A DNA stretch of 64,000 nucleotides from the NCBI RefSeq assembly GCF_900107095.1, contig NZ_FNOR01000003.1, forward strand, positions 248,001 through 312,000, read 5' to 3'. Within the stretch, counting starts at the first letter, position 1. Each line of letters opens with the position of its first letter. Below are positions 18,730 to 54,458 of this stretch, one piece after another. Position numbers and translations under genes: made by a program. A model generated the notes under the pieces. That model searched no databases and had not been told where the DNA came from. It saw nothing but the letters and a program-made list of their open reading frames with translations. Source of the DNA: Collimonas sp. OK242 (GTDB taxonomy: Bacteria; Pseudomonadota; Gammaproteobacteria; Burkholderiales; Burkholderiaceae_D).

Positions 18730-19416
18730 CTATGCTGCGCCACCGAAGAACGCCCCGACCACTCCCGTGACTCCCATCGCAAGCAAGCCCAATATCAGAA
18801 CGCGCGCTGCTCCGCGCAAGACGGGCGCACCGCCGGTACGTGCAGCGAACACGCCTAAGGCACCGAGGAAAATGAGGGAGACGACTGCAATCGTCGGAAT
18901 CAGGCCGGCTGCCGGCGCAAGAACGGCCGCCAGCATCGGAACGACGCCGCCCACCATGAAGCTGAGAGACGACGATATGGCTGCCTGCAATGGTCGCGCC
19001 GTCAACGCTTCAGTGATACCGATGTCGTCCCGCGCATGCGCCCCGATGGCGTCATGCTCCATGAGCTGCTGCGCGACTTGCGAGGCCAGTTCGAGATCCA
19101 GGCCGCGCTGGATATAGATGTCGCGCAGCTCTATATGTTCTGCGTCATAGTCTTGCAACAATGCGCGTCGTTCGATGTCGAGATCGGCCCGTTCCGTATC
19201 TGCCTGCGAACTAACCGAGACAAATTCGCCGGCTCCCATCGACAGCGCACCGGCGGCAAGTCCTGCAAATCCGGTGATAAGGATGCCTTCCGGATTCATG
19301 TGCGCGGCTGCAACTCCGAGCAATAGGCTCGAAATCGACAACACGCCGTCATTTGCGCCAAGTACGCTCGCGCGTAGCCATCCGGATCGGTGGGTGCGAT
19401 GAATATGTGCAGTCAT
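18730..19416 (-). CDS. VIT1/CCC1 family membrane protein (Fe/Mn transport)
   Basis: 228 residues. An N-terminal helix pair with LGANDGVLSISSLLLGV matches the VIT family pore region. A charged metal-binding-domain stretch (about 75-130, rich in Asp/Glu/His) and three C-terminal membrane helices (about 145-225) follow. Plant and yeast members move Fe(II) or Mn(II) out of the cytosol. It lies 126 bp downstream of the Nramp-like gene on the same strand, so import and export or storage of metal may be co-regulated under the FNR-like site at 20991. Confidence 0.88.
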   Translation of the reverse strand: MTAHIHRTHRSGWLRASVLGANDGVLSISSLLLGVAAAHMNPEGILITGFAGLAAGALSMGAGEFVSVSSQADTERADLDIERRALLQDYDAEHIELRDIYIQRGLDLELASQVAQQLMEHDAIGAHARDDIGITEALTARPLQAAISSSLSFMVGGVVPMLAAVLAPAAGLIPTIAVVSLIFLGALGVFAARTGGAPVLRGAARVLILGLLAMGVTGVVGAFFGGAA

Positions 19417-19542
19417 GGCTTATCGAAATGGTGATATCCGGCACTTGCCAAAATCATGGCGGCAGCGGCAGCATCCAGTGCTGGCTTGGCGCCGATTGCA
19501 GGTACATCGTATCATGCAGCCAGGCAATACAGGCACGGCAAC

Positions 19543-20865
19543 CTATCCGGGAATGAACATGCGCACGGCGGCAGCCCCCATCACTGCCGTTGCAATCCAG
19601 CCGAGAGCGGTAATCAGCCGGCTTGCCGTGAACTCCCCCATCACGGATTTCATTGAAGCCAATATGATAATCACCACCATCAAGGGCACGGCAACGACGC
19701 CGTTGATGACTGCACTCCAGAACAAAGCCTTCATCGGGCTAATCGGCGAATACTGGATGACAAGTCCGGCAAGCACGCTGACGGCGATGACGCCATAGAA
19801 CCCGCGTGCATCGCTTGCTTTTCGTTCCAGGCCGGATTTCCAGCCCATTGCCTCCGACAGGGCATAACCCGCAGAGCCGGCCAGCACCGGCACGCCGATC
19901 AGGCCGACACCCAGAATGCCGAGGGCAAAAATGGTATACGCAAAATCGCCGGCCAGCGGCCGCAATGCGCTGGCTGCCTGCGCCGCGCTATCGATATCCC
20001 TGACGCCGGCTACGTTAAGCGTGACTGCAGTCGCCAGGATAATGAAATAGGCGGTGATGTCGGAATAGAACATGCCGCTCCAGGTATCCCACTGGATGCG
20101 CCGCAGTTCGCCGACGGCAGCATGGCCGTCAAGCACCAGCGGCACGGCGCCGGGTCGCGCCTGCATATCCTCGACTTCTTCGGACGCCTGCCAGAAGAAC
20201 AGATAGGGGCTGATAGTGGTGCCGAAGACCCCGACAATCACCGCGGCCGCGGTGCCATTGAACTGGAATCTTGGCCAGACCGTGCGCGCCGCCACCTCTG
20301 CCCAGGGAACATGGACTGTGAACAAGACTGCGGCGTAGGCAAGCAGAGAGAAGGTCAGCCACTTCAAGAAGAAGACATAGCGATGATATGGAATGAACAC
20401 CTGCAGCAGCAGCGTTCCGAATACAAAAAATGCGGTCATCAGATGACGGTTGAAGCCGATCACCAGTTCGGCCACTTCGCCCATGGCAGCCACGTCCGCA
20501 GCGATATTGAGAATATTCGCTACCAGCAGCAGCAACACGACGACCAGCAGTACAGCGGGCGGAAACGTGGTCTTGATATTGGCGGCCAGGCCTTTTCCGG
20601 TGACGCGGCCGATACGCCCGCACATGGATTGAATCGCCGCCATCAATGGATAAGCCAGCGGCATGGTCCACAGCATGTTGAGACCGAACTGGGCGCCGGC
20701 CTGGGAGTAGGTAGCGATGCCGCTAGGATCGTCGTCGGCGACGCCGGTGATCAGCCCCGGTCCGATCCGCGCCAAGGGATGTTCCTTCAAACGCTCCCAC
20801 AAGACGCGGAAACCGTATCCGCGAATCGGAACCTTGAAGTTATCGTTATCGTTTGTCAATTTCAC
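19543..20865 (-). CDS. Nramp-family transporter with non-canonical metal-site motifs
   Basis: 440 residues, about 11 membrane helices, with a GTG start preceded by AAGGTC. The first helix carries DDDPSGIATYSQ (from about residue 44) where classic Nramp/MntH proteins have DPGN, and helix 6 has GTTISPYLFFWQ with no MPHN motif. The overall fold pattern is Nramp-like, but the Mn/Fe-coordinating set is changed, so the cation may differ (Mg, another divalent metal or a proton-coupled function). The VIT gene follows on the same strand. An FNR-like box lies 126 bp upstream. Confidence 0.85.
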   Translation of the reverse strand: MKLTNDNDNFKVPIRGYGFRVLWERLKEHPLARIGPGLITGVADDDPSGIATYSQAGAQFGLNMLWTMPLAYPLMAAIQSMCGRIGRVTGKGLAANIKTTFPPAVLLVVVLLLLVANILNIAADVAAMGEVAELVIGFNRHLMTAFFVFGTLLLQVFIPYHRYVFFLKWLTFSLLAYAAVLFTVHVPWAEVAARTVWPRFQFNGTAAAVIVGVFGTTISPYLFFWQASEEVEDMQARPGAVPLVLDGHAAVGELRRIQWDTWSGMFYSDITAYFIILATAVTLNVAGVRDIDSAAQAASALRPLAGDFAYTIFALGILGVGLIGVPVLAGSAGYALSEAMGWKSGLERKASDARGFYGVIAVSVLAGLVIQYSPISPMKALFWSAVINGVVAVPLMVVIIILASMKSVMGEFTASRLITALGWIATAVMGAAAVRMFIPG

Positions 20866-20990: not shown

Positions 20991-21004
20991 TTGACCTGCA
21001 TCAA
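20991..21004. promoter_or_regulatory. FNR/Anr-like box (Nramp-like gene)
   Basis: TTGACCTGCATCAA: one mismatch to TTGAT-N4-ATCAA. A -10-like TACCAT on the minus strand near 20966 fits an activator centred about 41 bases upstream. Confidence 0.65.
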
Positions 21005-21792: not shown

Positions 21793-22098
21793 TCAGGACT
21801 TCTTGGTCCATGCGCTGCACCAGCCGTTGGCGGCGACTTGTTTGCCAGCGAACAGGGGACATCCGCCAGCGGCATCGCCCGGCTTGCCCAGGTACAGCGA
21901 GCAATTGCTGCAAAGCTGGCCAGCAGCATACTTGGGAAATTTCACCTTATCCGCTTTGCTGGCGTCGGCTTTGTAGCCTAGAGCTGCCGCCTGGGCGTCG
22001 CTCTCGGCGACCATGGCGCCTTGGGCCAGGCTATGGCCCGATGCCAGTGCAGCGCTTCCCAAACCAAGTTGAACAATAAATTCGCGACGGCTGACCAT
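21793..22098 (-). CDS. High-potential iron-sulfur protein (HiPIP)
   Basis: 101 residues. A twin-arginine signal (SRREFIVQLGLGSAALAS, residues 3-20) directs export of the folded protein. The four cluster cysteines have HiPIP spacing: C63, C66, C80 and C94 (QLCSNCSLYLG, GGCPLF, GWCSAW). HiPIPs are periplasmic one-electron carriers with a 4Fe-4S cluster. It is the last gene of a three-gene minus-strand group after a Cyc2-like cytochrome-porin and a c4-type cytochrome, so it probably accepts or donates electrons in that chain. The ribosome site AGAAAT lies upstream of the ATG. Confidence 0.92.
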   Translation of the reverse strand: MVSRREFIVQLGLGSAALASGHSLAQGAMVAESDAQAAALGYKADASKADKVKFPKYAAGQLCSNCSLYLGKPGDAAGGCPLFAGKQVAANGWCSAWTKKS

Positions 22099-22160
22099 GA
22101 TATTTCTCCAAAATTGTTAGAATCGGGACGCAGCCAACCATGGCCGTTCGCCAGAACACG

Positions 22161-22874
22161 CTATTGAGCGGGTGCCATCGCCTCCAGATAGGCCGCGACA
22201 TTTTTCATGTTCTCTGGCGTGAGTTCGTGCGCAATACCTTTCATCATGACGCCCTCCGGTCTTTCATCCGTTCTTTGAAAAACCATCAGTTGCTTGACGA
22301 TATAGTCGGCATGCTGGCCTGCCAAACGTGGAAACTGCTGAATGCCTTCGCCATGTGCGCCGTGGCAGCCGGAGCAGGCAGGCGTGTTGTTCGCGACAAT
22401 GCCTTGTTCGAAAATCTTCTGGCCTTCCTTGAGCAAAGTCTGATTTCCAGATTTACCCGGGGGTGGCGATTGCGAAGAGAAATAGGCAGCCAGTCCGTCG
22501 ATCTGGTCATCGGACAAGCGGGCACTGATGCCCCACATGTACTCGAACCCGGCTGGATCGGAACGGCCATGGCTTTTGAATGATTTGAGCTGTTCCACGA
22601 GATACGGTTGCGACTGCGCCGCCAGATTCGGGAAATTGGGCGACACGGAGACGCCCTGAACGCCATGGCAATTGGAGCAAACCTGCAGTGCGAGCGTCTT
22701 CGCCGCGACATTGGGATCGCCCAGTGAACGGGATCTTTCCGGTAAATTGCAAGCGGCAAGCCCTGCCGCGACGATTAAACTCAAAGAAAAATAAAGTCCC
22801 TTCCGTTTCACATGTTCGAATCGCGCTGCCGTAGTTACGCGGTGTGCGGGCTTACCGTCATCGTAGCTATTCAT
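22161..22874 (-). CDS. Diheme c4-type cytochrome c lipoprotein
   Basis: 237 residues. The hydrophobic segment ends in GLAAC with C42 as probable lipid-anchored cysteine. Two class I cytochrome domains follow, with heme sites CSNCH (66-70) and CSGCH (167-171); methionines of PEGVMMKGIAHEL and EYMWGIS are plausible axial ligands. The layout matches the cytochrome c4 family, which passes electrons to terminal oxidases. The ATG directly follows the stop of the upstream barrel cytochrome gene (TAAATG), implying coupled translation. The lipid anchor is an inference. Confidence 0.88.
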   Translation of the reverse strand: MNSYDDGKPAHRVTTAARFEHVKRKGLYFSLSLIVAAGLAACNLPERSRSLGDPNVAAKTLALQVCSNCHGVQGVSVSPNFPNLAAQSQPYLVEQLKSFKSHGRSDPAGFEYMWGISARLSDDQIDGLAAYFSSQSPPPGKSGNQTLLKEGQKIFEQGIVANNTPACSGCHGAHGEGIQQFPRLAGQHADYIVKQLMVFQRTDERPEGVMMKGIAHELTPENMKNVAAYLEAMAPAQ

Positions 22875-24209
22875 TTAGTACGCTCCCCACACATAGAGAA
22901 ACAAGGTGTTGTTGTCTTTGGCATTGCGCCCTGAACCGTCGTAGTTGCTGGAGGCTCCGTGGAACTGGGTGTAGGCGTAGTATTGAACGCCAATTCGAAG
23001 GTATTGCACCGGCGTCCAGAATATTTCAGGAACCCAGCCGCGTGTGCCGGGATTGGCTGCGACATCCGGATACAAGGTCGGATCCGAGCTTCCTGTGGTG
23101 CTGAAATAGCTCAGGCTGGTACCGTATTTCGCCCGATAGACGTAGCTGGCTTTCAGCCTCAACTGATTAAGCGTATTGGAGGCATTGCTGGCAACGCCGG
23201 TCACGTCGCCATTGGTGATGGTTTCCCTGATATAGCTCACCTGCGCCGTCACGGTATGCGGATCCAGCAGATATTGATATTGCGCGTCTATCCCGCGGTC
23301 ACGATAGCGTGTCGTCGGACCGACAGGATTCGTGTTGTCGGGATAGATTTGCGCATTCATGGCAAGTGCTCCAATCATCGCGCTATGCGGCCCCCAGTCG
23401 TGGCTGAGCGCTAGCCGTATGTAGGGATTGGTGCCCTTCAGGTTCGTCTGGTCCTGCGCTTTCGTGCCCTGGCTTAAGAACGACCATACGCCGTTGCTGG
23501 TCTGATATGCAGCCACCTCTGCGTACAGCGTCTTGTTCCAGAAAGCATAGGCTGTCAGCCCGGCGACCTGAGTGCCCAGTTGGCTAATGATGGGGCTGGC
23601 GTCAGGCGCGGTGACCCCGAATTGAGTCGGGACATATTGGATCCATGCAGGAGCTGTATTCCAGGGATCGGTGAGGGAAGGATTGTTGTTCAGGCTGAAT
23701 CCGAAGATGAAGTCTTGGGTCGGGCCGATAAATCGATCGGCGTAGCGCAGGTCGAAATTATCGGAAGCCCACTTCCCTTGCCATTTGCCGGTGTTCTGAT
23801 TTTGACTGTCGTAGTTATTGTAGGTCCACTGCCCGAACACACCGACATTGTCAGTAACTTTGCCTGCCAGGAAGACGCTGCCGGTTTGAAACAGGGCGAC
23901 CGCATCCTTGGCGAACGCCACGTCGCTATCCGGATTCGCACTCTTGGTGAAACTGGCCACCCCCATCACCGATAGCGGAATGGTGCGCGTACCGATCGTA
24001 TAACCGGTGAGCTTGAATAATCTCCCATAAGCAGTCAGCTCAGGAAATTGGCCGCCGGCGTGACAGGCAACGCAATTTTGCCCGGTTTGCCTTGCGAAAA
24101 CCGGTAATGCATCCGCCACCAGCGGGCTCAGCAAACCTTGTAGTAAAAGAATAATGGCTAACAGCCGGGAATACCTCATTCCCCGATATAGGTATTTGAA
24201 CGAATCCAT
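22875..24209 (-). CDS. Cyc2-like fused monoheme cytochrome / outer-membrane beta-barrel
   Basis: 444 residues. A signal peptide (to about residue 34, after VADA) is followed at once by LPVFARQTGQNCVACH, with the heme-c motif at 46-50, then FPELTAYGRLFKLTGYT. The rest (about 75-444) has alternating aromatic/polar strands and ends VWGAY, with aromatic Y at the C-terminus as in outer-membrane barrels. The order (small heme domain, then porin) and the ARQTG-CxxCH-FP-L-GR-FK-GYT pattern resemble Cyc2, the Fe(II)-oxidising porin cytochrome. It is translated from 24209 (AAGGGG ribosome site); an alternative start at 24179 also gives a good signal peptide. A perfect FNR box lies upstream. Confidence 0.8.
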   Translation of the reverse strand: MDSFKYLYRGMRYSRLLAIILLLQGLLSPLVADALPVFARQTGQNCVACHAGGQFPELTAYGRLFKLTGYTIGTRTIPLSVMGVASFTKSANPDSDVAFAKDAVALFQTGSVFLAGKVTDNVGVFGQWTYNNYDSQNQNTGKWQGKWASDNFDLRYADRFIGPTQDFIFGFSLNNNPSLTDPWNTAPAWIQYVPTQFGVTAPDASPIISQLGTQVAGLTAYAFWNKTLYAEVAAYQTSNGVWSFLSQGTKAQDQTNLKGTNPYIRLALSHDWGPHSAMIGALAMNAQIYPDNTNPVGPTTRYRDRGIDAQYQYLLDPHTVTAQVSYIRETITNGDVTGVASNASNTLNQLRLKASYVYRAKYGTSLSYFSTTGSSDPTLYPDVAANPGTRGWVPEIFWTPVQYLRIGVQYYAYTQFHGASSNYDGSGRNAKDNNTLFLYVWGAY

Positions 24210-24365
24210 TCCAAGCTGCCCCTTTCATAGTTTTTAAAACTACTGTTGCAAAGCCCGAACCACATTCGAATCAGTTGACAATAAGTATTTTTTTGGCTTT
24301 TGTCAATTAATCCGCATCTCTCCAACGGCGTGCCATCAGCGTAACCGTGCCGGCCAGCCAGGTTC

Positions 24366-24379
24366 TTGATGTGCATCAA
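24366..24379. promoter_or_regulatory. FNR/Anr box (cytochrome-porin operon)
   Basis: TTGATGTGCATCAA, identical to the phasin site. A -10-like TACGCT on the minus strand near 24340 lies at the right distance. Confidence 0.8.
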
Positions 24380-24478: not shown

Positions 24479-24492
24479 TTGATTTGTATCAA
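24479..24492. promoter_or_regulatory. FNR/Anr box (hydratase/Pta-ackA operon)
   Basis: TTGATTTGTATCAA, a perfect match to TTGAT-N4-ATCAA, 95 bp before the ATG at 24587. Confidence 0.8.
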
Positions 24493-24586
24493 ATTTTTTT
24501 TGTGCATCATTGTTACTCTTGGAATATGCCGCAGCGTCGCTGTCCGGTCTGCAACCGGGCTCCCGTTCACCCTACTCTTGACTAAC

Positions 24587-34511: not shown

Positions 34512-35408
34512 TTAACTGCGTGCTCTCAGTAAATCGGCGACAGCAACAGCTGTCGGTTTGGCCATATCGATCCGGTTACTCGAATGGAGAATAGTGTTGC
34601 AGCTGACAATACGATCGACACCGGCCACCTGGAGCGCGATATAGCCGTCGCCGGCAAACAGAGGATGCACGGCAATGCATACCGGCGGCGCCATGCCCGC
34701 AGCGTTGATCTGCTTGACCGCGGCGACCATGGTGCGGGCGGTGGAAACAATATCGTCCATCAATACCGGTGTCCTGCCTTCCCAGTCCGCCACCAGCGGA
34801 ACCGAGACTTCCACCTCGCGATCGCCGCGCCGTTTCTTTTGCAACACCGTATACGGACATCCGACCGCGTTGGCCACGGCGGCAACCCATTGTTCGCTTT
34901 CAGCATCGGGGCCGATAATGAAGGGAAGCTGTACATTTCCGGTAATCCATTTTGCCAGCTCAGGGGCCGCATGCACCACCCGGCTCGGGACCGAGTAGAT
35001 TTCGGACAACTCGCGATGCCGGTGCAGATGCGGATCAACCGTCACCAGCCAGTCGCAGCAGCTGGAAATCAAGCGCGCGAAATGCGCTGAAGTTACCCCT
35101 TCCTCCTCCATGAAGCGCGCGTCCTGCCGCATGTAAGGCAAGTAAGGAATGACGAAACCGACGCTACGGGCTCCCAGCTCGCGGGCCACGCAACCGGCAA
35201 GATACAGCGCCATGATTTTTCCATCTGGCCGCTCCAGCGCGCAGGCCAGCACTACGTCGCGCCCCGCGACCGAAGTCATGAAGCGAGGGCAAGACTCGCC
35301 ATCGGGAAAATGATGCATGTCCATGACACCGGTCTCGGCAGGCAAGTAACTGCGCAGCTGCGAGGCGAAGCCGTCGTTGCCCGGCATGGTAAAAAATACG
35401 GGTTTCAT
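34512..35408 (-). CDS. Ribose-phosphate pyrophosphokinase-like protein
   Basis: 298 residues from the ATG at 35408, whose first base is the last base of the upstream stop (TGATG). It has the two phosphoribosyltransferase-type domains of PRPP synthetase: VDPHLHRHRELSEI, the flexible-loop KKRRGD, and the PRPP loop VLMDDIVSTARTM. The usual SPDxGGxxRA segment reads IIGPDAESEQWVA, so it is a divergent paralogue and probably not the housekeeping enzyme. PRPP synthetase makes PRPP from ribose 5-phosphate and ATP. Its coupling to a nucleoside-phosphorylase gene suggests ribose-phosphate recycling. Confidence 0.85.
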   Translation of the reverse strand: MKPVFFTMPGNDGFASQLRSYLPAETGVMDMHHFPDGESCPRFMTSVAGRDVVLACALERPDGKIMALYLAGCVARELGARSVGFVIPYLPYMRQDARFMEEEGVTSAHFARLISSCCDWLVTVDPHLHRHRELSEIYSVPSRVVHAAPELAKWITGNVQLPFIIGPDAESEQWVAAVANAVGCPYTVLQKKRRGDREVEVSVPLVADWEGRTPVLMDDIVSTARTMVAAVKQINAAGMAPPVCIAVHPLFAGDGYIALQVAGVDRIVSCNTILHSSNRIDMAKPTAVAVADLLRARS

Positions 35409-36991
35409 CAAACCTCCAGTAAAGAAACTAAATTTTCCTGCGCCTCGGCGTAGGCCCGTGCATAAGCCAGCTCTCCCGGCGACTCGGCATGAATGGTCAA
35501 CAACGGTTGCCCGACCTCGACCCGCATGCCCAGCGGAGCCTGGAAAACAATTCCTGCGGCAGGCGCCTTCGGTGCGCCCGCAAGTTTGGCAATGCTGGCC
35601 AATCTTCGGTTATCGATCGCCACCACCCTGCCTCGATGCAGGGACAGGACGGGATGGGTGTATGTGGCCTGAGGCGGTATCCGCATGCCGCCCTGGGCTT
35701 CGCAGATCGCCTGGAATTTCCGCCAGGCGGCGCCGCTATCGAGTACATTGGCAGCCAGCGCCATGCCCTGGCCGGCTTCAGCCTTACCTCCCAGTTCAAG
35801 CACGCTGGCGGTCAGCACCAGGGCTCGCTCGCGCAGATCTTGCGGCGCATCGGCTGCGTTCTGCAAGATCGCGAGCACATCGCGCGCCTCCAGAGCCGGG
35901 CCGATGCCACGCCCTATCGGCTGCCTACCGTCGGTCATGACCGGCTTGACCGCAATGCCCAGTGCGGCGCCGACCTTGACCAGCCGTTCAGCCAATGCTT
36001 GCGCGGCTTCCGGCGACCTGACCTTGGCGGTTAGTCCGACTGGCAAGTCGATCACGACATGGGTCGATCCTGCGGCGATTTTCTTGGACAAAACGGAAGC
36101 GACCAGCAGGCCGTCGCTGTCCAGGTCTAGCGGATGTTCCACCCGTATCAGCAGGTCGTCGGCAGGACTCAGGCTGACGGCGCCACCCCAGGCGATGCAA
36201 CCGTTTTCGCGCTCGACCACATGGCGCATGCCGGCAATATCCAGCGCTACCGGCGCCAGGGTTTCCATGGTATCGGCGGTACCGGCTGGCGAAGTGATGG
36301 CGCGCGAGGAGGTTTTAGGAATAGTCAAGCCGCAGGCGGCGACGATGGGCACGATCAATAAGGTGGTGCGGTTGCCAGGCAAGCCGCCGACGCAATGCTT
36401 GTCGACCACGATGTCGGCATCCCATTGCAGCCGCTGCCCTACCTTGACCATCGCATCGGTCAACGCTATCGTTTCGGTCAGGTCCAGGCGGCTGCCGGAA
36501 CAGGCCGTGATCAAGGCCGCCATTTCGATATGCGAATAACGACCGGCAACGATATCGTGCACGATGGCATTGACGCCATCGGAAGTAAAAGGGCGGCCAT
36601 AGATTTTCGCCCGCACCGATGAAAATGACTGCACTGGCGCCGGGTGTGCTATCCGCACCAGGTCGCCATCAGCGCCGCCGAGCGCGCGCCAGGCCGCTTC
36701 CGACAATCCGACCTCCTGCATGGCAATCATCGGGAAATGTACGACATTGAGAGTAGCGATGATATGCCGGTCGCCACGCCACACTTCGACCCGAGAGTGC
36801 GCTTCGAATCCCTCCGATTTGCAGATATCGCAATCGCTGCGCATGTATGCAACCAATTCCTGGTAAGTATCGATGCCGACGCGCCGCATCCGCAAACCGC
36901 CTGCCACAGGTCCGCAGCTTGCCTGCGCCGGCACGGGCTTGTGATAAATCGGCTTGTGATCGATCGACTTGCGATAATTGCGGTCGCTCAT
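35408..36991 (-). CDS. Thymidine/AMP phosphorylase family protein
   Basis: 527 residues, longer than bacterial DeoA (about 440) because of an extra N-terminal domain (1-110), as in archaeal AMP phosphorylase. The phosphate site reads KHCVGGLPGNRTT and the catalytic stretch KTSSRAITSPAGTADTME, both in the archaeal style. The C-terminal barrel-sandwich domain (about 430-527) is present. Members phosphorolyse thymidine or nucleoside 5'-monophosphates; AMP phosphorylase gives ribose 1,5-bisphosphate and base. It overlaps the MBL RNase gene by four bases and touches the PRPP-synthetase-like gene, so all three are made together. Substrate is undetermined. Confidence 0.88.
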   Translation of the reverse strand: MSDRNYRKSIDHKPIYHKPVPAQASCGPVAGGLRMRRVGIDTYQELVAYMRSDCDICKSEGFEAHSRVEVWRGDRHIIATLNVVHFPMIAMQEVGLSEAAWRALGGADGDLVRIAHPAPVQSFSSVRAKIYGRPFTSDGVNAIVHDIVAGRYSHIEMAALITACSGSRLDLTETIALTDAMVKVGQRLQWDADIVVDKHCVGGLPGNRTTLLIVPIVAACGLTIPKTSSRAITSPAGTADTMETLAPVALDIAGMRHVVERENGCIAWGGAVSLSPADDLLIRVEHPLDLDSDGLLVASVLSKKIAAGSTHVVIDLPVGLTAKVRSPEAAQALAERLVKVGAALGIAVKPVMTDGRQPIGRGIGPALEARDVLAILQNAADAPQDLRERALVLTASVLELGGKAEAGQGMALAANVLDSGAAWRKFQAICEAQGGMRIPPQATYTHPVLSLHRGRVVAIDNRRLASIAKLAGAPKAPAAGIVFQAPLGMRVEVGQPLLTIHAESPGELAYARAYAEAQENLVSLLEV

Positions 36992-38349
36992 GGCAACTCC
37001 ACGCTTTCCAGGTAATCAGGCACCCGGCAAGGCCAATGCAATTTTTCTTCGATCCGCCTGCGCAATGCATCCGCCGCCGCCGGCTCGCCATGCGTGATGA
37101 ACGTTTGCTTGGGAGGCTTCGAAAAATGCGACAGCCAGTCGAGTATCTCGTCGGCGTCGGCATGCGCCGACATATTGTCGATCTGGCTTACCTGCGCACG
37201 CAGCCGCACATACTCGCCGTGGATCTTGATCGCATCGGCGCCGGCAATCATGGCGGCGCCGCGTGTGCCGCCTGCCTGGAAACCGACGAACAGGATGGTA
37301 TTGCGCGGATCGGGGGCGAAAGCCTTCAAATGATGCAAAACCCGCCCTCCTGTCGCCATGCCGCTGGCCGCGATAATGACCATCGGCTGCTGCCTTTGAT
37401 TCAAGGCAATCGACTCCTCTACACTGTTGACAATCTTGGCCGTGCTGAACATGGCCTCGCATTGCTGGTAATCGAGCCGGTGGTCTTGCCTGTGCTTGTG
37501 ATAAATCTCGGTGGCATTGACCGCCATCGGACTGTTCAGGTAGATCGGCAGCGCTGCCGCAATATCGCCACTGGCCTTGAGCAGATGAATGGCATAGAGC
37601 AGGGCCTGGGCGCGCCCTACCGCAAAAGACGGAATGACGGTTACTCCGCCGCGAGCGGCGGTATCGCGTATCGTCTTGCCCAGCAAGATGGCGGGGTCGG
37701 CAGTATCGTGGCGGCGATCGCCGTAGGTCGATTCAAGCACCAGATAGTCGGTCTTTTCGATCAGAGACGGTGGCAACATGATCAAATCATTGGGCCGCCC
37801 CAGGTCTCCGGAAAACGTGATGGTCGTCTCTGCGCTTCGCAACGATACGATGGCCGCTCCCAGGATATGGCCGGCACGGTGCAAATGCGCGCTGAGGCCT
37901 GCGCATACCTGAAAATCGGTATCGAACCGGACCGGGGAAAAAAAGGCAAGCGATCGTACCGCGTCGGCTTCCGAATACAATGGCAGGGCGGGACTGTGTT
38001 TGGAGAAGCCGTGACGATTCGCATAGCTGGCCTCCTCTTCCTGCAGATGGCCGCTGTCTGGAAGCAGAATCTTGCACAGTTCGAAAGTCGCCTCGCTACA
38101 GTAGATCTTCCCCTTGAAGCCGTTCTTGACCAGTAGCGGCAGATAGCCGCTATGGTCGAGATGCGCATGGGTCAGGATCACTGCATCCAGCTCCGACGGC
38201 TGCAGCGGCAGGCGTTCCCAGTTACGCAGGCGCAATTGCTTATATCCCTGGAACAGGCCGCAATCTACCAGTACTTTCGCTGAACCGGCGCTGAGCAGGT
38301 ATTTTGAACCTGTCACGGTCCCGGTGGCGCCCAAAAATTGGATGTTCAT
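36988..38349 (-). CDS. Beta-CASP metallo-beta-lactamase RNase
   Basis: 453 residues. The metallo-beta-lactamase motif THAHLDHSGYLP, a further metal histidine in HRAGHILGAA, DLGRPND, and beta-CASP motifs (LESTYGDRRH, IPSFAVGRAQALLY, NSPMAVNATEIY, ASGMATGGRVLHHL, MSAHADADEILDWL) indicate an intact two-zinc nuclease of the CPSF-73/YSH1-like group. These enzymes cut RNA. A K+ channel gene lies 20 bp upstream; downstream the phosphorylase gene overlaps by ATGA. It could supply RNA fragments for the nucleotide recycling implied by its neighbours. Confidence 0.9.
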   Translation of the reverse strand: MNIQFLGATGTVTGSKYLLSAGSAKVLVDCGLFQGYKQLRLRNWERLPLQPSELDAVILTHAHLDHSGYLPLLVKNGFKGKIYCSEATFELCKILLPDSGHLQEEEASYANRHGFSKHSPALPLYSEADAVRSLAFFSPVRFDTDFQVCAGLSAHLHRAGHILGAAIVSLRSAETTITFSGDLGRPNDLIMLPPSLIEKTDYLVLESTYGDRRHDTADPAILLGKTIRDTAARGGVTVIPSFAVGRAQALLYAIHLLKASGDIAAALPIYLNSPMAVNATEIYHKHRQDHRLDYQQCEAMFSTAKIVNSVEESIALNQRQQPMVIIAASGMATGGRVLHHLKAFAPDPRNTILFVGFQAGGTRGAAMIAGADAIKIHGEYVRLRAQVSQIDNMSAHADADEILDWLSHFSKPPKQTFITHGEPAAADALRRRIEEKLHWPCRVPDYLESVELP

Positions 38350-42996: not shown

Positions 42997-43088
42997 TCCA
43001 GCCTGGAATACTGCCATCAGGCGATGTCTGGCGTTAAAATAGCGTGTTGCGGCAAGCTGCAATGCCCTATCTTCTACCGGACTTCGCC

Positions 43089-43841
43089 ATGCACCAGCCT
43101 TCCACCCACACAGCGCCGTTGCTCGACCTCGCCGCCCTGCGCAACAGTTGCTCCTCATGCGGCATGGATCAGCTGTGCTTGCCAATGGGACTGGATGAGT
43201 CCGACATGCTGCGTCTGGACAACATCATCGGCCGCCGCCGTGTGCGCCGGGACGACACCCTGTATCGGATCGGCGACAAGTTCGCCTCGCTGTATGCGGT
43301 GCGGGTAGGACAGTTCAAGACCTATCAAGCCAATCCTGACGGCGCCCGGCAAATCACCGGCTTCCAGATGAGCGGCGAGTTGCTGGGCATGGATGCGATC
43401 AGTACTGACAGCCATCAATGCGATGCGGTGGCCATGGAGGACAGCGAGGTATGCGACATTCCGTTCGCCCGGCTGGAACAGCTGTTCGGCGATATCCCGA
43501 CGCTGCTACGGCATTTCCACCGCATCATGAGTAAGGAAATCACGCGCGAGCAAAGCGTGATTCTGTTGCTCGGCAATATGCGTGCCGAGCAGCGTTTTGC
43601 GGCGTTCCTGGTAAATCTGTCGTCGCGCTACGCCGCGCGCGGCTATTCAGCGACCAACTTCCAGTTACGTATGACGCGCGAGGATATCGGCAATTATCTT
43701 GGCTTGACGATCGAAAGCATCAGCCGCCTGCTGTCCAAGCTCAAGAAGGACGGCATACTGAAGGTCAGCAAACGGGATATCGAACTGGTCGATTTCCCGG
43801 CATTGAAAATATTGGCGATGGGCGCCGACGCCTGCAACTGA
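43089..43841 (+). CDS. fnr: Fnr/Anr-type oxygen-sensing regulator (copy 2)
   Basis: 250 residues from the ATG at 43089, exactly the length of E. coli FNR. The cysteines fall at C21, C24, C30 and C122, almost the E. coli numbering (20, 23, 29, 122), which supports this start over GTG 43044 or ATG 43062. The helix-turn-helix with TIESISRLLS reads the FNR box. This copy is the more canonical of the two in the window, and it lies close to the cbb3 oxidase genes, a usual place for the regulator. A large palindrome begins 4 bp after its stop. Confidence 0.94.
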   Translation: MHQPSTHTAPLLDLAALRNSCSSCGMDQLCLPMGLDESDMLRLDNIIGRRRVRRDDTLYRIGDKFASLYAVRVGQFKTYQANPDGARQITGFQMSGELLGMDAISTDSHQCDAVAMEDSEVCDIPFARLEQLFGDIPTLLRHFHRIMSKEITREQSVILLLGNMRAEQRFAAFLVNLSSRYAARGYSATNFQLRMTREDIGNYLGLTIESISRLLSKLKKDGILKVSKRDIELVDFPALKILAMGADACN

Positions 43842-44592: not shown

Positions 44593-45993
44593 TCATCTTG
44601 GTATATAAAACACGGCCTTTTCATTCACCTGCGACCTGGCGCCGTCGAGCCCCTGCAGCCTGAAAGAAATATGGTTGGACCCCGGCCGGCCCTGCCCGTG
44701 CGGCACTCTTACCCGCACCGGAATCAGCCGCGTCTCGGTGGCGGCGAGCGTTACCTCGCTATCGCCGGACAGCGCGATGCCATCGATGCCGGCCACACTG
44801 ATCTTGTACCGATGCGGCATTTCGTCGGCATTGATTGCCTGCAGCCGATAGACATTCTCAACCATGCCTTCTTCGACTTCCCGGCCCATGGAACCACGAT
44901 CGCGAATTACATCGACTTTGAGAGGCACCCTGAGTATCAGCGAGCCAAGGAACACCGTCACGATCACCAGCAGCGCCGAGCTGTAGATCAACACGCGCGG
45001 GCGAAAAATCCGGCGCAGAATGGCAGCCGCCGGCAAATTCTCCGTCATCGCGTGTTCCGTTGAATAACGGATCAGCCCGCGCCGCGCGCCTATCCTGTCC
45101 ATTACCATATTGCAGGCGTCGACACAGGCGGCACAACCGATGCACATGTATTGCAGGCCAGCCCGGATATCGATTCCGGTCGGGCAAACCTGCACGCACA
45201 TGCTGCAATCGATGCAGGGAGAAGAGGCCGGTTCCGGGGTTTTCCGGTAACGGCTGGAACGCGGTTCGCCGCGTGCCGCATCGTAGGTGATGATCAAGGA
45301 ATCGCGATCGAACATGGCGCTCTGGAAGCGTGCATACGGACACATGTATTTGCACACCTGCTCGCGCATCCAGCCCGCATTGCCATACGTGGCGAAGCCA
45401 TAGAATAGAACCCAGAACCACTCCCACGATCCCAGGCCAAGTACGCTTGCCTCGCGCGCCAGATCGTGGATGGAGGTGAAGTAGCCGACGAAAGTAAAGC
45501 CGGTCCACAAAGCCACGACGCCCCAGGCCAGGTGCTTACCGCTTTTACGCAGCAATTTATCGAGCGACCACGCTTGCCGGTCGAGCCGCATGCGCGAACT
45601 GCGCGGCCCTTCTATCCGGCTTTCTATCCACAGGAATATCTTGGTGTACACCGTTTGCGGGCAAGCGTAGCCGCACCAGACCCGGCCGGCGATTGCCGTA
45701 AACAAGAACAGCGAGAACGCGCAGACAATCAGCAGCACGGCAAGATAGATGAAATCCTGCGGCCACAGCACGATGCCGAACAAATAGAACTTGCGCGCGG
45801 CCAGGTCGAACAGCACTGCCTGGCGGCCATTCCACCTTAACCACGGCATGCCATAAAACACCAGCTGTGTCAGCCATACACAAATCCAGCGCAGCGTGGC
45901 GTAACGCCCGCTGACATCGCGCGGATATATTTGCTGCCGTGCCTGGTACATCCTGACAACCGCAGTCTTTGGAGAAGATTCACTGGTGTTCAT
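44593..45993 (-). CDS. ccoG: Cytochrome c oxidase accessory protein CcoG (FixG/RdxA)
   Basis: 466 residues. Several membrane helices, including an NapH-like region with RVWCGYACPQTVYTKIF, precede a two-cluster ferredoxin section CIDCSMCVQVCPTGID and CIGCAACVDACN, and a C-terminal Ig-like periplasmic domain (about 350-466). CcoG is a Cu(II)-reducing accessory factor that supports copper delivery to the cbb3 oxidase. It lies 21 bp after ccoP in the cco operon. Confidence 0.93.
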   Translation of the reverse strand: MNTSESSPKTAVVRMYQARQQIYPRDVSGRYATLRWICVWLTQLVFYGMPWLRWNGRQAVLFDLAARKFYLFGIVLWPQDFIYLAVLLIVCAFSLFLFTAIAGRVWCGYACPQTVYTKIFLWIESRIEGPRSSRMRLDRQAWSLDKLLRKSGKHLAWGVVALWTGFTFVGYFTSIHDLAREASVLGLGSWEWFWVLFYGFATYGNAGWMREQVCKYMCPYARFQSAMFDRDSLIITYDAARGEPRSSRYRKTPEPASSPCIDCSMCVQVCPTGIDIRAGLQYMCIGCAACVDACNMVMDRIGARRGLIRYSTEHAMTENLPAAAILRRIFRPRVLIYSSALLVIVTVFLGSLILRVPLKVDVIRDRGSMGREVEEGMVENVYRLQAINADEMPHRYKISVAGIDGIALSGDSEVTLAATETRLIPVRVRVPHGQGRPGSNHISFRLQGLDGARSQVNEKAVFYIPR

Positions 45994-46014
45994 GATTGGC
46001 CATCGGGCTTGCGA

Positions 46015-46974
46015 TCATTGTGAGGCCGCCGCCGTGCGATCACGTGCGACCGCGCTGCCGGGATGATTCGACAAACTCCACACATAAGCCGCAAGCACAT
46101 GCACCTTCGGTTCGCCGAGAAAATCCTTGAATGACGGCATGGTGTTGTCGCGCCCCTTGCGAATGGTTTCCATGATGGTGTCGACGCTGCCGCCGTATAG
46201 CCAGATCTTGTCGCTCAGGTTCGGTGCGCCTATGGCCTGGCTGCCGGTGCCGCCGCTACCGTGGCAGCCCATGCAAACAGAAAACTTCGGTTTGCCGAAT
46301 ACCGCCTTGATCGGATCGTGGGTCGAGCCGGACAGGCTCAGCACATAGTTTGCTACGTTCTCGACATCCTTGTCGCCTCCCAGCGCGGCCCCCATCGGCG
46401 GCATTACGCCATGCCGGCCTTCCATGATGGTGGTCTTGATGGTTTCCGGCGCGCCGCCATGCAGCCAGTCGTCGTCGGTCAGGTTCGGAAATCCTTTATT
46501 GCCGCGCGCGTCGGAACCATGGCATTGCGCACAGTAAGTCAGGAACAGGCGTTCACCGATCGCATGCGCCTGCGGATCGGCGGCGACTGCTTTCAAATCC
46601 TGGTGCAGGTATTTGTTGAACATGGGGCCGTAGTCGGCATCGGCTTTCTTCAGCTCGGCCTGATAGGCGCTGCTGGATTTCCAGCCGAGCTGGCCGGCGA
46701 AACTGCCGAGGCCGGGATACAGTACCAGATAGACCAGGGCAAACACGATGGTCACATAGAACAGCCACATCCACCAGCGCGGCAAAGGATTGTTCAATTC
46801 TCCCAGGTCGTCGTCCCAGACATGGCCGGTCGTATTGTCAGCGGGATCCTGCCCCGGTTCCAGCGTGACCTTGCGGCTGCCCTGCATCCACAACAGCACG
46901 CCGCAGCCGAAGATGCTGAGTATCGTCAATATGGTGATATAGGGGCTCCAGAAGCCATCGGTAAAATCAGCCAT
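46015..46974 (-). CDS. ccoP: cbb3-type cytochrome c oxidase subunit III CcoP
   Basis: 319 residues from the ATG at 46974, with GGGAG seven bases upstream; this start lies inside the last codons of ccoQ. Two N-terminal membrane helices (FixP N-domain, with PLPRWWMWLFYVTIVFAL) anchor two c-type cytochrome domains with CAQCH and CMGCH heme sites and axial Met in GVMPPMG and NTMPSF. CcoP shuttles electrons to CcoO and CcoN. The GRDN-MPSF tail region is intact. Confidence 0.95.
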   Translation of the reverse strand: MADFTDGFWSPYITILTILSIFGCGVLLWMQGSRKVTLEPGQDPADNTTGHVWDDDLGELNNPLPRWWMWLFYVTIVFALVYLVLYPGLGSFAGQLGWKSSSAYQAELKKADADYGPMFNKYLHQDLKAVAADPQAHAIGERLFLTYCAQCHGSDARGNKGFPNLTDDDWLHGGAPETIKTTIMEGRHGVMPPMGAALGGDKDVENVANYVLSLSGSTHDPIKAVFGKPKFSVCMGCHGSGGTGSQAIGAPNLSDKIWLYGGSVDTIMETIRKGRDNTMPSFKDFLGEPKVHVLAAYVWSLSNHPGSAVARDRTAAASQ

Positions 46975-47173
46975 GGTGACGCTCCCTGGCATCCAGCTGC
47001 GCCTTCACTTTATCGAGCTGTTCCTGGTCGTCGGCGAACGGCGACAACGCCGCCTCGTCGAAATCCTTAGGTTGTTTTCGAAAATAACTCCACCAGACAA
47101 TGCCGATGAACGTGACAAAGCTGATCAGGGTAATGATGCTGTGCGCCTCAATCAGTATTTTTTGGATAGCCAT
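46967..47173 (-). CDS. ccoQ: cbb3-type oxidase small subunit CcoQ
   Basis: 68 residues, one membrane helix (about 12-30, IITLISFVTFIGIVWWSYF) and the short acidic tail typical of FixQ. CcoQ stabilises CcoP in the complex. It sits between ccoO (stop 2 bp before its ATG) and ccoP, which overlaps its end by 8 bp. Confidence 0.93.
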   Translation of the reverse strand: MAIQKILIEAHSIITLISFVTFIGIVWWSYFRKQPKDFDEAALSPFADDQEQLDKVKAQLDARERHHG

Positions 47174-47175
47174 GA

Positions 47176-47790
47176 TTATCTCTCCACCTTGATCTGTGTT
47201 CCCAATCCTTGCAAATAGGCGATCAACGCATCTTGCTCGGTCTTGTTCTCCAATGCGGCCGGTGCGGCGGCGATCTCGGCATCGGTGTAGGGATCGCCCA
47301 GGCGCTGCAGCGCGCGCAGGTGCGGCACGATATCGTCAGGAATCAGGCGGGTCGATTCCAGCCACGGATAGCCGGGCATGTTCGACTCCGGCACCAGGTC
47401 GCGCGGATTGTGCAGGTGGGCGCGATGCCATTCGTCGCTGTAGCGGCCGCCGACGCGCGCCAGATCCGGCCCGGTGCGCTTCGATCCCCATTGGAACGGC
47501 CGGTCGTAGACCGATTCGCCGGCCACGGAATAATGGCCGTAGCGTTCCGTTTCGGCACGGAATGGCCGGATCATCTGGGAATGACAGTTGTAGCAGCCTT
47601 CGCGTATATAGATGTCGCGCCCTGCCAGCCGCAGCGGTGAATAGGGCCGCAGGCCGGTAACCGGCTGGGTCGTCGACTTCTGGAAAAACAAAGGTACGAT
47701 TTCCGCCAGGCCGCCGACGCTGACCACCAGAATCACCAGTGCGATCAACAGCCAGTGATTTTTTTCTATCGATTCATGTGAGAATTTCAT
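47176..47790 (-). CDS. ccoO: cbb3-type cytochrome c oxidase subunit II CcoO
   Basis: 204 residues from the ATG at 47790 ([20 protein letters not shown]). A membrane anchor at about 13-33 is followed by a monoheme cytochrome domain with [15 protein letters not shown] and axial Met in [11 protein letters not shown]. It passes electrons from CcoP to CcoN. A longer open frame upstream lies inside ccoN and was not used. The spacing to ccoN is 34 bp. Confidence 0.95.
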
Positions 47791-47824
47791 GCCCGTGCTC
47801 CAGGTTCGAATTGAGTCGATTGCG

Positions 47825-49306
47825 TCATAGGGCCTCCGCTCCTTCAGTTGCGATCTTGGCCGCGGGGACCAGCACCGGCGCCACGGGGTGAATACGCGCA
47901 ACCGAAATGCGCGTGTCCACCGGGAAGCTTTTGCGCATGGTCTTGAATGCATTGAAAGCCATCAGCAGCATGCCGCTCAGATACAGCAAGCCGCCGAAGA
48001 AACGAATCACGTAGTAGGGATAAGTCGCCTTGACCACCTCGACAAAGGCATAGGTCAGCGTGCCGTCGGGATTCACCGCACGCCACATCAATCCCTGCAT
48101 CACGCCGGCAATCCACATCGCGGCGATGTACAGGACGATGCCGATGGTGGCCATCCAGAAATGCAGCTCGATCATCTTTACGCTCCACATCTGCTGCTTG
48201 CCCGCCAGGCGCGGAATCAGGTAATACATCGAACCCATCGTGATGAAGCCGACCCAGCCCAGCGCACCGGAGTGAACATGGGCGATGCCCCAGTCGGTGT
48301 AGTGCGACAAGGCGTTGACGGTCTTGATCGCCATCATCGGACCTTCAAAGGTCGCCATGCCGTAGAACGACAGCGACACCACCAGGAATTTGAGGATAGG
48401 ATCCGTGCGCAATTTGTGCCACGCGCCCGACAAGGTCATCATGCCGTTGATCATGCCGCCCCAGGATGGCGCCAGCAGGATAAGCGAAAACACCATGCCC
48501 AGCGACTGGGTCCAGTCCGGCAATGCGGTGTAGTGGAGATGATGCGGGCCGGCCCACATGTAGGTGAAAATCAAAGCCCAGAAATGGACGATCGACAAAC
48601 GATAGGAATATACCGGGCGCTCGGCCTGCTTGGGAATGAAGTAATACATCATGCCGAGAAAGCCTGCGGTCAGGAAAAATCCCACCGCATTATGGCCGTA
48701 CCACCACTGGATCATGGCGTCCTGCACGCCGCTGTACGCGGAGTAGGATTTGGTCAGGGTGGCTGGCATGGCCATGCCGTTAACTACGTGCAGCAGCGCC
48801 ACGGCAATGATGAAAGCGCCGTAAAACCAATTGGCTACATAGATATGCGCGACCTTGCGTTTGGCCAGCGTGCCGAAGAACACCACGGCATAGGCCACCC
48901 ACACCACGGCCAGCAGAATCGTGATCGGCCATTCCAGTTCGGCATATTCCTTGCCGCGGGTGTAGCCCATCGGCAGGGTAATCGCGGCCAGCACGATCAC
49001 CAGCTGCCAGCCCCAAAAGGTGAACGCAGCCAAGCCGTCCGAGAACAGGCGCACCTGGCAAGTCCGTTGCACCACATAGTAGGAGGTTGCCATCAGCGCG
49101 CTGCCGCCGAACGCGAAGATCACCGCGTTGGTATGCAAGGGCCGCAGCCGGCCGAAACTTAGCCAGGGGATATCGAAATTCATTTCCGGCCATGCCAGCT
49201 GGGCTGCAATCAGCAGGCCGACCGTCATGCCGACCACTCCCCACACTATCGTCGCAATCGAAAATTGCTTGACGACCTTGTAGTTATAGTTAAGCGCATT
49301 TTCCAC
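47825..49306 (-). CDS. ccoN: cbb3-type cytochrome c oxidase catalytic subunit I CcoN
   Basis: 493 residues from the GTG at 49306, preceded by GGGGAGAG; a GTG at 49330 is possible but would leave almost no leader given the FNR box. Twelve membrane helices with heme b and Cu-B histidines: [37 protein letters not shown] and HVHSGALGW. It reduces O2 to water with very high affinity and pumps protons. It is the first gene of ccoNOQP-G-H. A perfect FNR box at 49371 makes it a clear low-oxygen gene. Confidence 0.97.
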
Positions 49307-49370
49307 GTTCTTCTCTCCCCAAAATACCACTGCAATGGGGCGAGGTTAACCGGCTATGGCCGTTTACTCT

Positions 49371-49384
49371 TTGATGTGAATCAA
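49371..49384. promoter_or_regulatory. FNR/Anr box (ccoN operon)
   Basis: TTGATGTGAATCAA, perfect dyad, centred about 71 bp before the ccoN start and giving an expected transcript start near 49336. Confidence 0.85.
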
Positions 49385-52138: not shown

Positions 52139-52926
52139 TGCCCTGCTCCCGCAGGGCTGATGCAGATTGCATCAAGCCAGCCCAGCGGCATTCCCTCAGC
52201 CACTCGCAAGATGCCCATCAACCCGAACAGCAACACGATCAAGCCGCCGGTGATACGTACCCGACGATCTTGCAGCCAGCTTTTCAGGCGCATTCCCAAC
52301 ATGCCGAGCGTCAATAGCATAGGCAAGGTTCCCAGCCCGAACGCCAGCATCACCTTGGCGCCGGATACGGCATCGCCGCTCAGCATTGCTGTCAGCAGTA
52401 CGCTGTAGACCATGCCGCATGGCAGCCAGCCCCATACAGCGCCCAGCATCAATGCCTTGGCCGGACTGTCCATGGGCAGCAAAAATTTGATGGCGGGCTG
52501 CAAACGCCGCCAGACGATCTGTCCCAGAGCTTCCAGCCGCCTTAAGCCGCGCCAGGCGTCCATCAGATGCAAGCCCAGTGCTATCAATATCAGATTGGCC
52601 AGCCAGTAAGCAACTATCTGCAGCGATGACAGCGACGTCAGGGCGCGCACACTCTGCGCCATGCCGCCCGCTATCGTGCCGGCCAAGGCATAGCTGAACA
52701 GCCTGCCGCTGTTGTAGGCAAACACGCGCGACAGATGCATGAAATAGGTTTGATCCGATGGTTCCGGCATTTTGCCGACCGTCACCAGCCGCAACGGGAT
52801 TACGCGAGCCGAAGGCGTTGCCGAGGGCGCTGCCGCCACCGACAAGGCGCTGACGATTCCGCCGCACATGCCGACACAGTGGATGCTGCCAAATAATCCT
52901 ATCAAGAAAATCGGTAACAGGTTCAT
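52135..52926 (-). CDS. Sulfite exporter TauE/SafE (DsbD_2-like) family membrane protein
   Basis: 263 residues from the ATG at 52926, with GAGGT upstream. Six membrane helices; cysteines of GSIHCVGMCGGI and VWGWLPCGMVYS match the CcdA/DsbD_2-like branch found next to ccoI in many proteobacteria. A sulfite-export role is doubtful in this context; a part in copper or redox handling during cbb3 maturation is more likely (inference). It overlaps ccoI by four bases. Confidence 0.85.
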   Translation of the reverse strand: MNLLPIFLIGLFGSIHCVGMCGGIVSALSVAAAPSATPSARVIPLRLVTVGKMPEPSDQTYFMHLSRVFAYNSGRLFSYALAGTIAGGMAQSVRALTSLSSLQIVAYWLANLILIALGLHLMDAWRGLRRLEALGQIVWRRLQPAIKFLLPMDSPAKALMLGAVWGWLPCGMVYSVLLTAMLSGDAVSGAKVMLAFGLGTLPMLLTLGMLGMRLKSWLQDRRVRITGGLIVLLFGLMGILRVAEGMPLGWLDAICISPAGAGH

Positions 52927-52952
52927 GCGTACCTCATGCCCAGGGCGCCTGC

Positions 52953-54371: not shown

Positions 54372-54458
54372 GTACACACTCCGGCAATTGAATGCATCAA
54401 TACGTGGGATTGATGACATCTACCGGCTGCAGCATATCTTGCGCAGATGGCAATCGCC

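Follow-up and report, generated by a model that had tools for sequence, protein, structure and literature searches.

Can a Collimonas bacterium in which no RuBisCO gene is found take up electrons from outside its cell when oxygen becomes scarce? The question is raised by three adjoining genes in a 64,000-nucleotide stretch of Collimonas sp. OK242 (contig NZ_FNOR01000003.1, positions 248,001 to 312,000; hereafter the window, whose own numbering is used throughout). An earlier note, made from the sequence of this DNA, had read them as a Cyc2-like porin-cytochrome, a diheme c4-type cytochrome and a high-potential iron-sulfur protein (HiPIP) under an FNR box, and had proposed a chain to a cbb3 oxidase. 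Its overall interpretation is partly supported by the analysis described here. With slightly better than even confidence, we read the genes as a single operon whose products would form a route for electron uptake through the outer membrane, induced as oxygen falls, in which electrons pass from Cyc2 to c4 and HiPIP and on to cbb3, and for which Fe(II) is the likeliest donor. The evidence computed here comprises the family motif, the predicted barrel, the operon layout, the FNR box with its promoter spacing, the conservation of the c4 gene, the adjacency of cbb3 genes in two relatives, and the absence of RuBisCO.

The first gene (22875-24209, on the minus strand like the two that follow it) encodes a Cyc2-type fused monoheme cytochrome-porin of 444 residues, and is the only cyc2 copy in the genome. 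Its single CXXCH motif, CVACH at residues 46-50, stands behind a signal peptide that was called by eye from the sequence and that falls in a helix (residues 2-30) in the structure model. The motif AXPXFAR[Q/K][T/Y], defined for Cyc2 in PMC8406198, is present as ALPVFARQT. Three residues separate it from CVACH, and the PXL motif is present as PEL, five residues after CVACH. Ten residues of this region (A34, P36, R40, Q41, T42, C46, C49, H50, P56, and L58) are invariant in 50 of 50 aligned sequences. A51, G52, and G53 are also invariant among 50 near relatives, and the heme-to-PXL spacing is two residues longer than in relatives without this AGG stretch. Cyc2 proteins are expected to have at least 365 residues and a 16-strand porin barrel; the window protein has 444, and 16 strands are predicted between residues 79 and 443. 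The earlier note had held that a failure to predict a barrel would speak against its reading, and the structure model contains one.

The 444-residue protein matched no Pfam or NCBIfam model and had no credible sequence match in the PDB; a profile search of the PDB and a Pfam search made with the 50 relatives yielded no credible match either. Hydrophobic alternation gave 14 peaks against 16.9 ± 3.0 in shuffled columns, a test that does not discriminate. Layout, family motif, and modelled 16-strand barrel support a Cyc2-type protein, which would be expected to carry heme and to lie in the outer membrane.

The c4 gene (22161-22874) has its ATG directly after the cyc2 stop codon and encodes 237 residues with a lipobox-like LAAC. 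Cytochrom_C (PF00034) matches it in two stretches (9.7e-21), which corresponds to two class I heme-c domains. The nearest solved sequences, 1h1o (4.8e-37, labelled cytochrome c-552, from A. ferrooxidans) and 1etp (1.6e-32, cytochrome c4), cover both domains. The HiPIP gene (21793-22098) lies 62 bp further on and encodes 101 residues. PF01355 matches at 3.3e-27 over model positions 2-66 of 66, the mature part has four cysteines, and the nearest solved sequence is 1hlq. A candidate twin-arginine translocation (Tat)-type signal, SRREF, is present, with a TIGR01409 score of 15.3 bits, below the cut-off of 16.7. All three genes are where the earlier note had placed them, and the identities it gave to both partners hold.

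Conservation around cyc2 was counted at loci that comprise its nearest relatives and an order-wide sample, and that are not a random draw. A c4 relative lies near cyc2 in 126 of 157 related loci, and an open reading frame with two CXXCH motifs starts at most 900 bp downstream in 105 of 157 (window included). The idea that a whole low-oxygen island is conserved with cyc2 was rejected, as each of the other window genes examined has a relative close to cyc2 in no more than 0 to 6 of the 157 related loci. These data also bear on whether the protein is no electron conduit at all but a porin whose heme is vestigial or has a structural role. The poorly modelled heme region would agree with this, as would the patchy occurrence of the gene and its interruption in one relative; however, the invariance of the ten motif-region residues (A34 to L58) and the retention of c4 beside most cyc2 genes make it highly improbable.

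Oxygen control is suggested by the cyc2 promoter. A palindromic FNR box, TTGATGTGCATCAA, occupies 24366-24379, ending 156 bp ahead of the start codon of cyc2, and a -10-like hexamer, TACGCT (24338-24343, minus strand), follows 22 nt after it on the cyc2 side. In FNR class II promoters, the box is centred at -41.5 and the -10 hexamer lies approximately 22 nt downstream, and the window promoter has this spacing. A second perfect box (24479-24492) has its own hexamer, TACTCT at 24514-24519, which faces the divergent MaoC-PTA/AckA genes and not cyc2, so that each operon has a box of its own. The listed reading frame of the MaoC-PTA gene begins inside this second box, and a later start is therefore assumed.

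Such boxes are more frequent here than expected by chance. The window contains 11 sites with at most one mismatch against 1.75 ± 1.25 in shuffled sequence, and none of 100 shuffles reached 11. Genome-wide, 36 perfect sites were found against one for a reversed control pattern, and six of the 36 are inside the 64-kb window. A further 13 of the 36 lie together in a 55-kb stretch outside the window (G000, contig C12, 74879-129428), a denser second low-oxygen region.

The box is also found upstream of related genes. When the upstream regions of the window and eight relatives were aligned, it was the sole shared block, imperfect in three of the relatives. Boxes within 400 bp upstream of cyc2 were counted in 155 homologues, with 22 by a strict and 42 by a relaxed definition. 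Shuffling these upstream regions left 0.15 and 0.29 on average, and among 1168 regions taken from in front of other open reading frames at the same loci the counts were 10 and 20. After thinning to below 75% identity, 16 of 99 homologues had a strict and 31 of 99 a relaxed box. As a signal separate from the box itself, a TAnnnT hexamer lies 21 or 22 nt from it towards cyc2 in 18 of 48 cases (13 of 35 after thinning), whereas the rate per other offset is 0.65% for all boxes and 0.54% for the thinned set. A single origin of the box was rejected. The relaxed box is present in 31 of 97 representatives and requires 21 changes on their tree, and is thus scattered; gain, loss, and missed weak boxes could alike produce this pattern. 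The cyc2 promoter looks like a functional FNR promoter, judged from its sequence, and FNR would presumably act on the operon as an activator.

The proposed electron sink lies in the same region. A gene for the Fnr regulator (43044-43841, plus strand; NF008365, 256 bits, cut-off 228) is followed by cbb3 genes on the minus strand (ccoG, ccoP, a FixO-type subunit, and ccoN; 44593-49330), with a perfect FNR box before ccoN (49371-49384). The proposed chain therefore has an FNR box at both of its ends. Genes for a CcoI-like P-type ATPase and a DsbD_2 protein, and hemN, come next (49616-54419, minus strand). The cbb3 genes are approximately 20-25 kb from the cyc2 cluster and share its orientation, in agreement with the distance given in the earlier note. 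The link is stronger than that note could know. In two genomes of the same genus, G008 and G009, the cyc2 cluster immediately precedes the DsbD_2, CcoI-like, and ccoN genes and shares their strand; that of G008 has no HiPIP gene in the stretch looked at. In two others, G002 and G014, the cluster has the same surroundings as in the window. Because of this adjacency in two relatives, and the distance and orientation in the window, cbb3 is the most plausible end of the chain in this organism.

The following sequence of events would connect these elements. When oxygen falls, FNR would become active, and the cyc2-c4-HiPIP and cbb3 genes would be transcribed. Cyc2, with a heme plug joined to its predicted 16-strand barrel, would accept electrons from an extracellular donor. 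These would be ferried through the periplasm by the c4 lipoprotein and HiPIP to cbb3, which is encoded in the same FNR-box-rich region and would hand them to oxygen. The resulting proton-motive force may supplement growth on organic carbon. We infer this order of carriers, and with it the inward direction of flow and the donor.

The opposite direction was also considered, in which surplus electrons are dumped on extracellular acceptors such as humics or Fe(III) when oxygen is limiting. FNR control is usual for alternative respiration, and the window also contains the fermentation-type genes MaoC-PTA and AckA with their own FNR box. However, the partners c4 and HiPIP are usually high-potential carriers, the operon contains no cytochrome with more than two hemes, and two relatives have an oxidase adjoining the cluster. 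Respiration of Fe(III) or humics has been suggested for some Cyc2 carriers (PMC6344600), whereas the potential measured for Cyc2 from PV-1, 208 mV, is described as appropriate for electron uptake from Fe(II) at neutral pH (PMC8406198). Outward flow is, on this evidence, distinctly unlikely.

Several observations weigh against an oxygen-controlled uptake route. The heme stretch, residues 29-56, is the worst-modelled part of the structure, with a predicted local distance difference test score (pLDDT) below 50. A sigma-70-type promoter, TTGACA-17-TATTGT (24278-24306, minus strand; 10 of 12 positions), lies nearer to cyc2 and offers an alternative start, for which the FNR box would sit further upstream. 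A recognisable box is absent from 113 of the 155 homologues, and for 5 of the 48 boxes the hexamer found at 21-22 nt faces away from cyc2. HiPIP genes occur at only 19 of 158 cyc2 loci and in differing positions, as on a Caballeronia plasmid with the order HiPIP-cyc2-cytochrome. Only 46 of 71 cyc2 carriers of the order have ccoN above the cut-off, so that members of the family need not be paired with cbb3. Finally, an intact orthologue was found in only 4 of 15 sampled genomes of the same genus (window's included), with an interrupted one in a fifth, G009, and the trait is therefore dispensable within the genus.

Five genomes of this sample carry a different homologue of approximately 41% identity (G002 has both types), and six have none. 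The five loci with the 41%-identical gene have a HiPIP gene downstream, but they lack an FNR box as well as, within the stretch, a relative of c4. In G009, cyc2 is broken by frame changes and a stop, and the relaxed FNR box, c4, and HiPIP are still there. As a neighbouring gene is also out of frame, the break may reflect either decay or sequencing error.

For the uptake route, dissolved Fe(II) is the likeliest donor. Fe(II) lasts mainly at low oxygen, and the characterised Cyc2 members named in PMC8406198 and PMC7029218 act on it, which together make it the best candidate. At low oxygen, the natural donor of the same inward route could instead be a metal other than iron, humic substances in reduced form, or a redox mediator outside the cell, although this is unlikely. 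The best 80 named relatives include many uncultured metagenome-assembled genomes (MAGs) or heterotrophs such as Paraburkholderia and Undibacterium, which are not known iron oxidisers. The authors of PMC8406198 allow for further functions of Cyc2 and point out that large parts of Clusters 2 and 3 await testing. Among MAGs from humic bogs, 29 were reported to have Cyc2 homologues, some of them in lineages for which no extracellular electron transfer is known (PMC6344600). Against this stand the Fe(II) activity of the characterised members and the Nramp and VIT1 genes that adjoin the operon, although this neighbourhood as a whole is common to only two other loci.

These two metal transporter genes (18730-20865, minus strand) lie near the HiPIP end of the operon, with a one-mismatch FNR box at 20991-21004 before Nramp, and might handle Fe(II) or Mn(II) at low oxygen. 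They also raise the possibility that the system serves iron homeostasis rather than energy, with oxidation at the surface keeping Fe(II) out of the cell when it is soluble. Their position beside the operon, in the window and in two relatives, and the fit of FNR-linked timing to the appearance of Fe(II) agree with this. However, a VIT1 relative accompanies cyc2 at only 4 of 157 other loci and an Nramp relative at only 6, compared with 126 for c4, and a dedicated chain to an oxidase exceeds what protection would need. We regard a homeostatic role as improbable.

The electron-uptake reading also has to fit an organism without RuBisCO. No RuBisCO was found in the window's genome by a model that matched 5 of 14 control genomes, and the route would therefore be an extra source of energy for cells growing on organic carbon and not a basis for autotrophy. 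Most carriers are different. A RuBisCO-family match was obtained for 58 of 71 cyc2 carriers against 114 of 328 other genomes of the order sample (Fisher 3e-13, uncorrected for kinship; a few of the matches are so weak that they could represent RuBisCO-like proteins). Such a distribution agrees with a gene that serves mainly lithotrophs. PMC7767972 has already reported cyc2 in genomes lacking RuBisCO, among them a relative of Dyella and other MAGs.

We also asked whether carriers without RuBisCO tend to have the FNR box. The association was strong in a discovery set (63 of 71 genomes usable). At a RuBisCO cut-off of 1e-100, the relaxed box was present in 12 of 14 carriers without RuBisCO and 4 of 49 with it (two truncated matches, one per set, were counted as RuBisCO); at 1e-40 the counts were 10 of 12 and 6 of 51. 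It was not confirmed in a test set named beforehand, which held 68 usable genomes of named relatives. At 1e-100 the relaxed box was found in 16 of 42 against 5 of 26 (p = 0.12) and the strict box in 4 of 42 against 3 of 26 (p = 1); at 1e-40 the values were 12 of 38 against 9 of 30 (p = 1) and 3 of 38 against 4 of 30 (p = 0.69). When both sets were put to a phylogenetic sign test, the median p was 0.07 for the relaxed and 0.45 for the strict box. Pooling both sets with the relaxed box gave p = 3e-6 (1e-100) or 0.0025 (1e-40), values carried by the discovery set, where the idea arose.

The gene itself is common in the order. At a cut-off of 1e-10, it is carried by 71 of 399 evenly drawn genomes (window's included) in 36 of 164 genera. 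In a scan of named genomes, at least 590 matching stretches were confirmed (590 of the 597 listed), and the best 80 loci were kept. Among the matches listed, the closest named relatives of the porin protein are Oxalobacteraceae. The window protein also groups in trees with this family (Rugamonas, Undibacterium, and genomes of its own genus and family), and cyc2 thus looks inherited within it. Cyc2-type genes near genes for c-type cytochromes were also seen on plasmids of Paraburkholderia, Caballeronia, Acidithiobacillus, Polymorphobacter, and Methylocystis, among nine plasmid records with a Cyc2-type match. The module may therefore travel. In print, Burkholderia, Ralstonia, and Xanthomonas are highly sampled genera in the Cyc2 set of PMC8406198, and Burkholderiales are among the neighbours of Acidithiobacillus Cyc2 in PMC10654088. 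With its frequency in the order sample, this means that the cyc2 gene is no discovery in itself.

The best-known relative is Cyc2 of Acidithiobacillus ferrooxidans, a Cluster 2 member that likewise has a monoheme N-terminus fused to a porin, the family motif, and a c4-type partner (PMC7029218, PMC8406198), which is Cyc1 of the rus operon (PMC10654088). In contrast, the window operon includes a HiPIP gene but none for a copper protein or aa3; the oxidase encoded nearby is of the cbb3 type, RuBisCO is absent, and the promoter is of FNR type. A plasmid copy from A. ferrooxidans YQ-N3 is 31% identical over 91% of the window protein, a comparison made with this copy and not with the characterised chromosomal Cyc2. 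The rusticyanin model TIGR03095, tried as an anchor for the characterised Cyc2, matched 0 of 397 genomes; it missed every control too, and the search is uninformative.

The Cluster 1 protein of Mariprofundus ferrooxydans PV-1 has the same architecture, and cbb3-type oxidase genes are part of the pathway proposed for Zetaproteobacteria (PMC7029218). Five distant proteins, four of family f86 and one of f24, gave a profile match to the window protein (98.9% probability, 279 columns). This set, putatively Zetaproteobacterial because f86 is taken, without proof, to belong there, stands apart from the window's side of the family tree with a support of 100. The heme-to-PXL spacing, longer than in relatives without the AGG stretch, is a further difference. 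By sequence, the window protein would fit Cluster 2 rather than Cluster 1. Placement outside the Cyc2 family in a tree, which the earlier note had also named as a refuting result, was thus addressed indirectly, with the plasmid copy and the f86/f24 set as references. Cyc2-like proteins of the cluster 2 type were found in all recovered Ferrovaceae MAGs (PMC13390463). Ferrovum-type members are reported to be capable of carbon fixation as well as Fe(II) oxidation; the window's genome has no RuBisCO.

Two further systems resemble the locus in part. PioABC of Rhodopseudomonas also combines an outer-membrane conduit with HiPIP as a periplasmic carrier (PMC10654088). However, Pio places a decaheme cytochrome in a separate 26-strand porin, the arrangement that defines PioAB and MtoAB, whereas the window porin itself bears a single heme motif fused to a 16-strand barrel. 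The lxa locus of Burkholderia cenocepacia is a low-oxygen island with universal stress proteins (Usp; PMC9104464), and the window has a Usp gene. Burkholderia is said there to lack cbb3 oxidases, in contrast to the window; the two loci are likened by description and not by sequence.

A row of genes elsewhere in the window, on the minus strand at 34512-38349, encodes a ribose-phosphate pyrophosphokinase-like protein, an AMP/thymidine phosphorylase of archaeal type (TIGR02645, 591 bits, cut-off 434.6), and a beta-CASP metallo-beta-lactamase RNase. The best match of the latter is the Cas14 model of type VII CRISPR systems, at 370 bits, far under the cut-off of 800. These genes are perhaps a set for RNA or nucleotide salvage at low oxygen.

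The earlier note had called the oxidation of Fe(II) or another extracellular donor by such bacteria new, with reference to mineral weathering. This stands for regulation and context, as no description of FNR control of a Cyc2 operon, or of cyc2 beside cbb3 genes, and no mention of Cyc2 in Collimonas was found in the literature searched. It does not stand for the occurrence of Cyc2 in Burkholderiales or in genomes without RuBisCO, both of which are in print. For Collimonas pratensis PMB3(1) with biotite, acidification via a GMC oxidoreductase was described, and the words 'iron oxidation' do not occur in the text of that study. In cultures oxidising mineral Fe(II), Cyc2-bearing MAGs were found, and Cyc2 was proposed as a marker of oxidative weathering (PMC7767972).

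FNR-controlled Cyc2-c4 modules could, as a tentative generalisation that we hold at somewhat less than even confidence, represent a widespread conditional lithoheterotrophy in Burkholderiales. Supposed plain heterotrophs would then gain energy from Fe(II) via a high-affinity oxidase as oxygen falls, with no fixation of CO2. An FNR-controlled cyc2 in a genome without RuBisCO would also permit a clean deletion test, and such genetics is challenging in iron oxidisers (PMC8406198). Cyc2 is in use as a marker gene for iron oxidation. If Cyc2 is indeed under oxygen control in organisms without RuBisCO, the presence of cyc2 would not by itself identify an autotrophic iron oxidiser, and microbes of soils and freshwaters could have a potential for Fe(II) oxidation that is expressed only under certain conditions.

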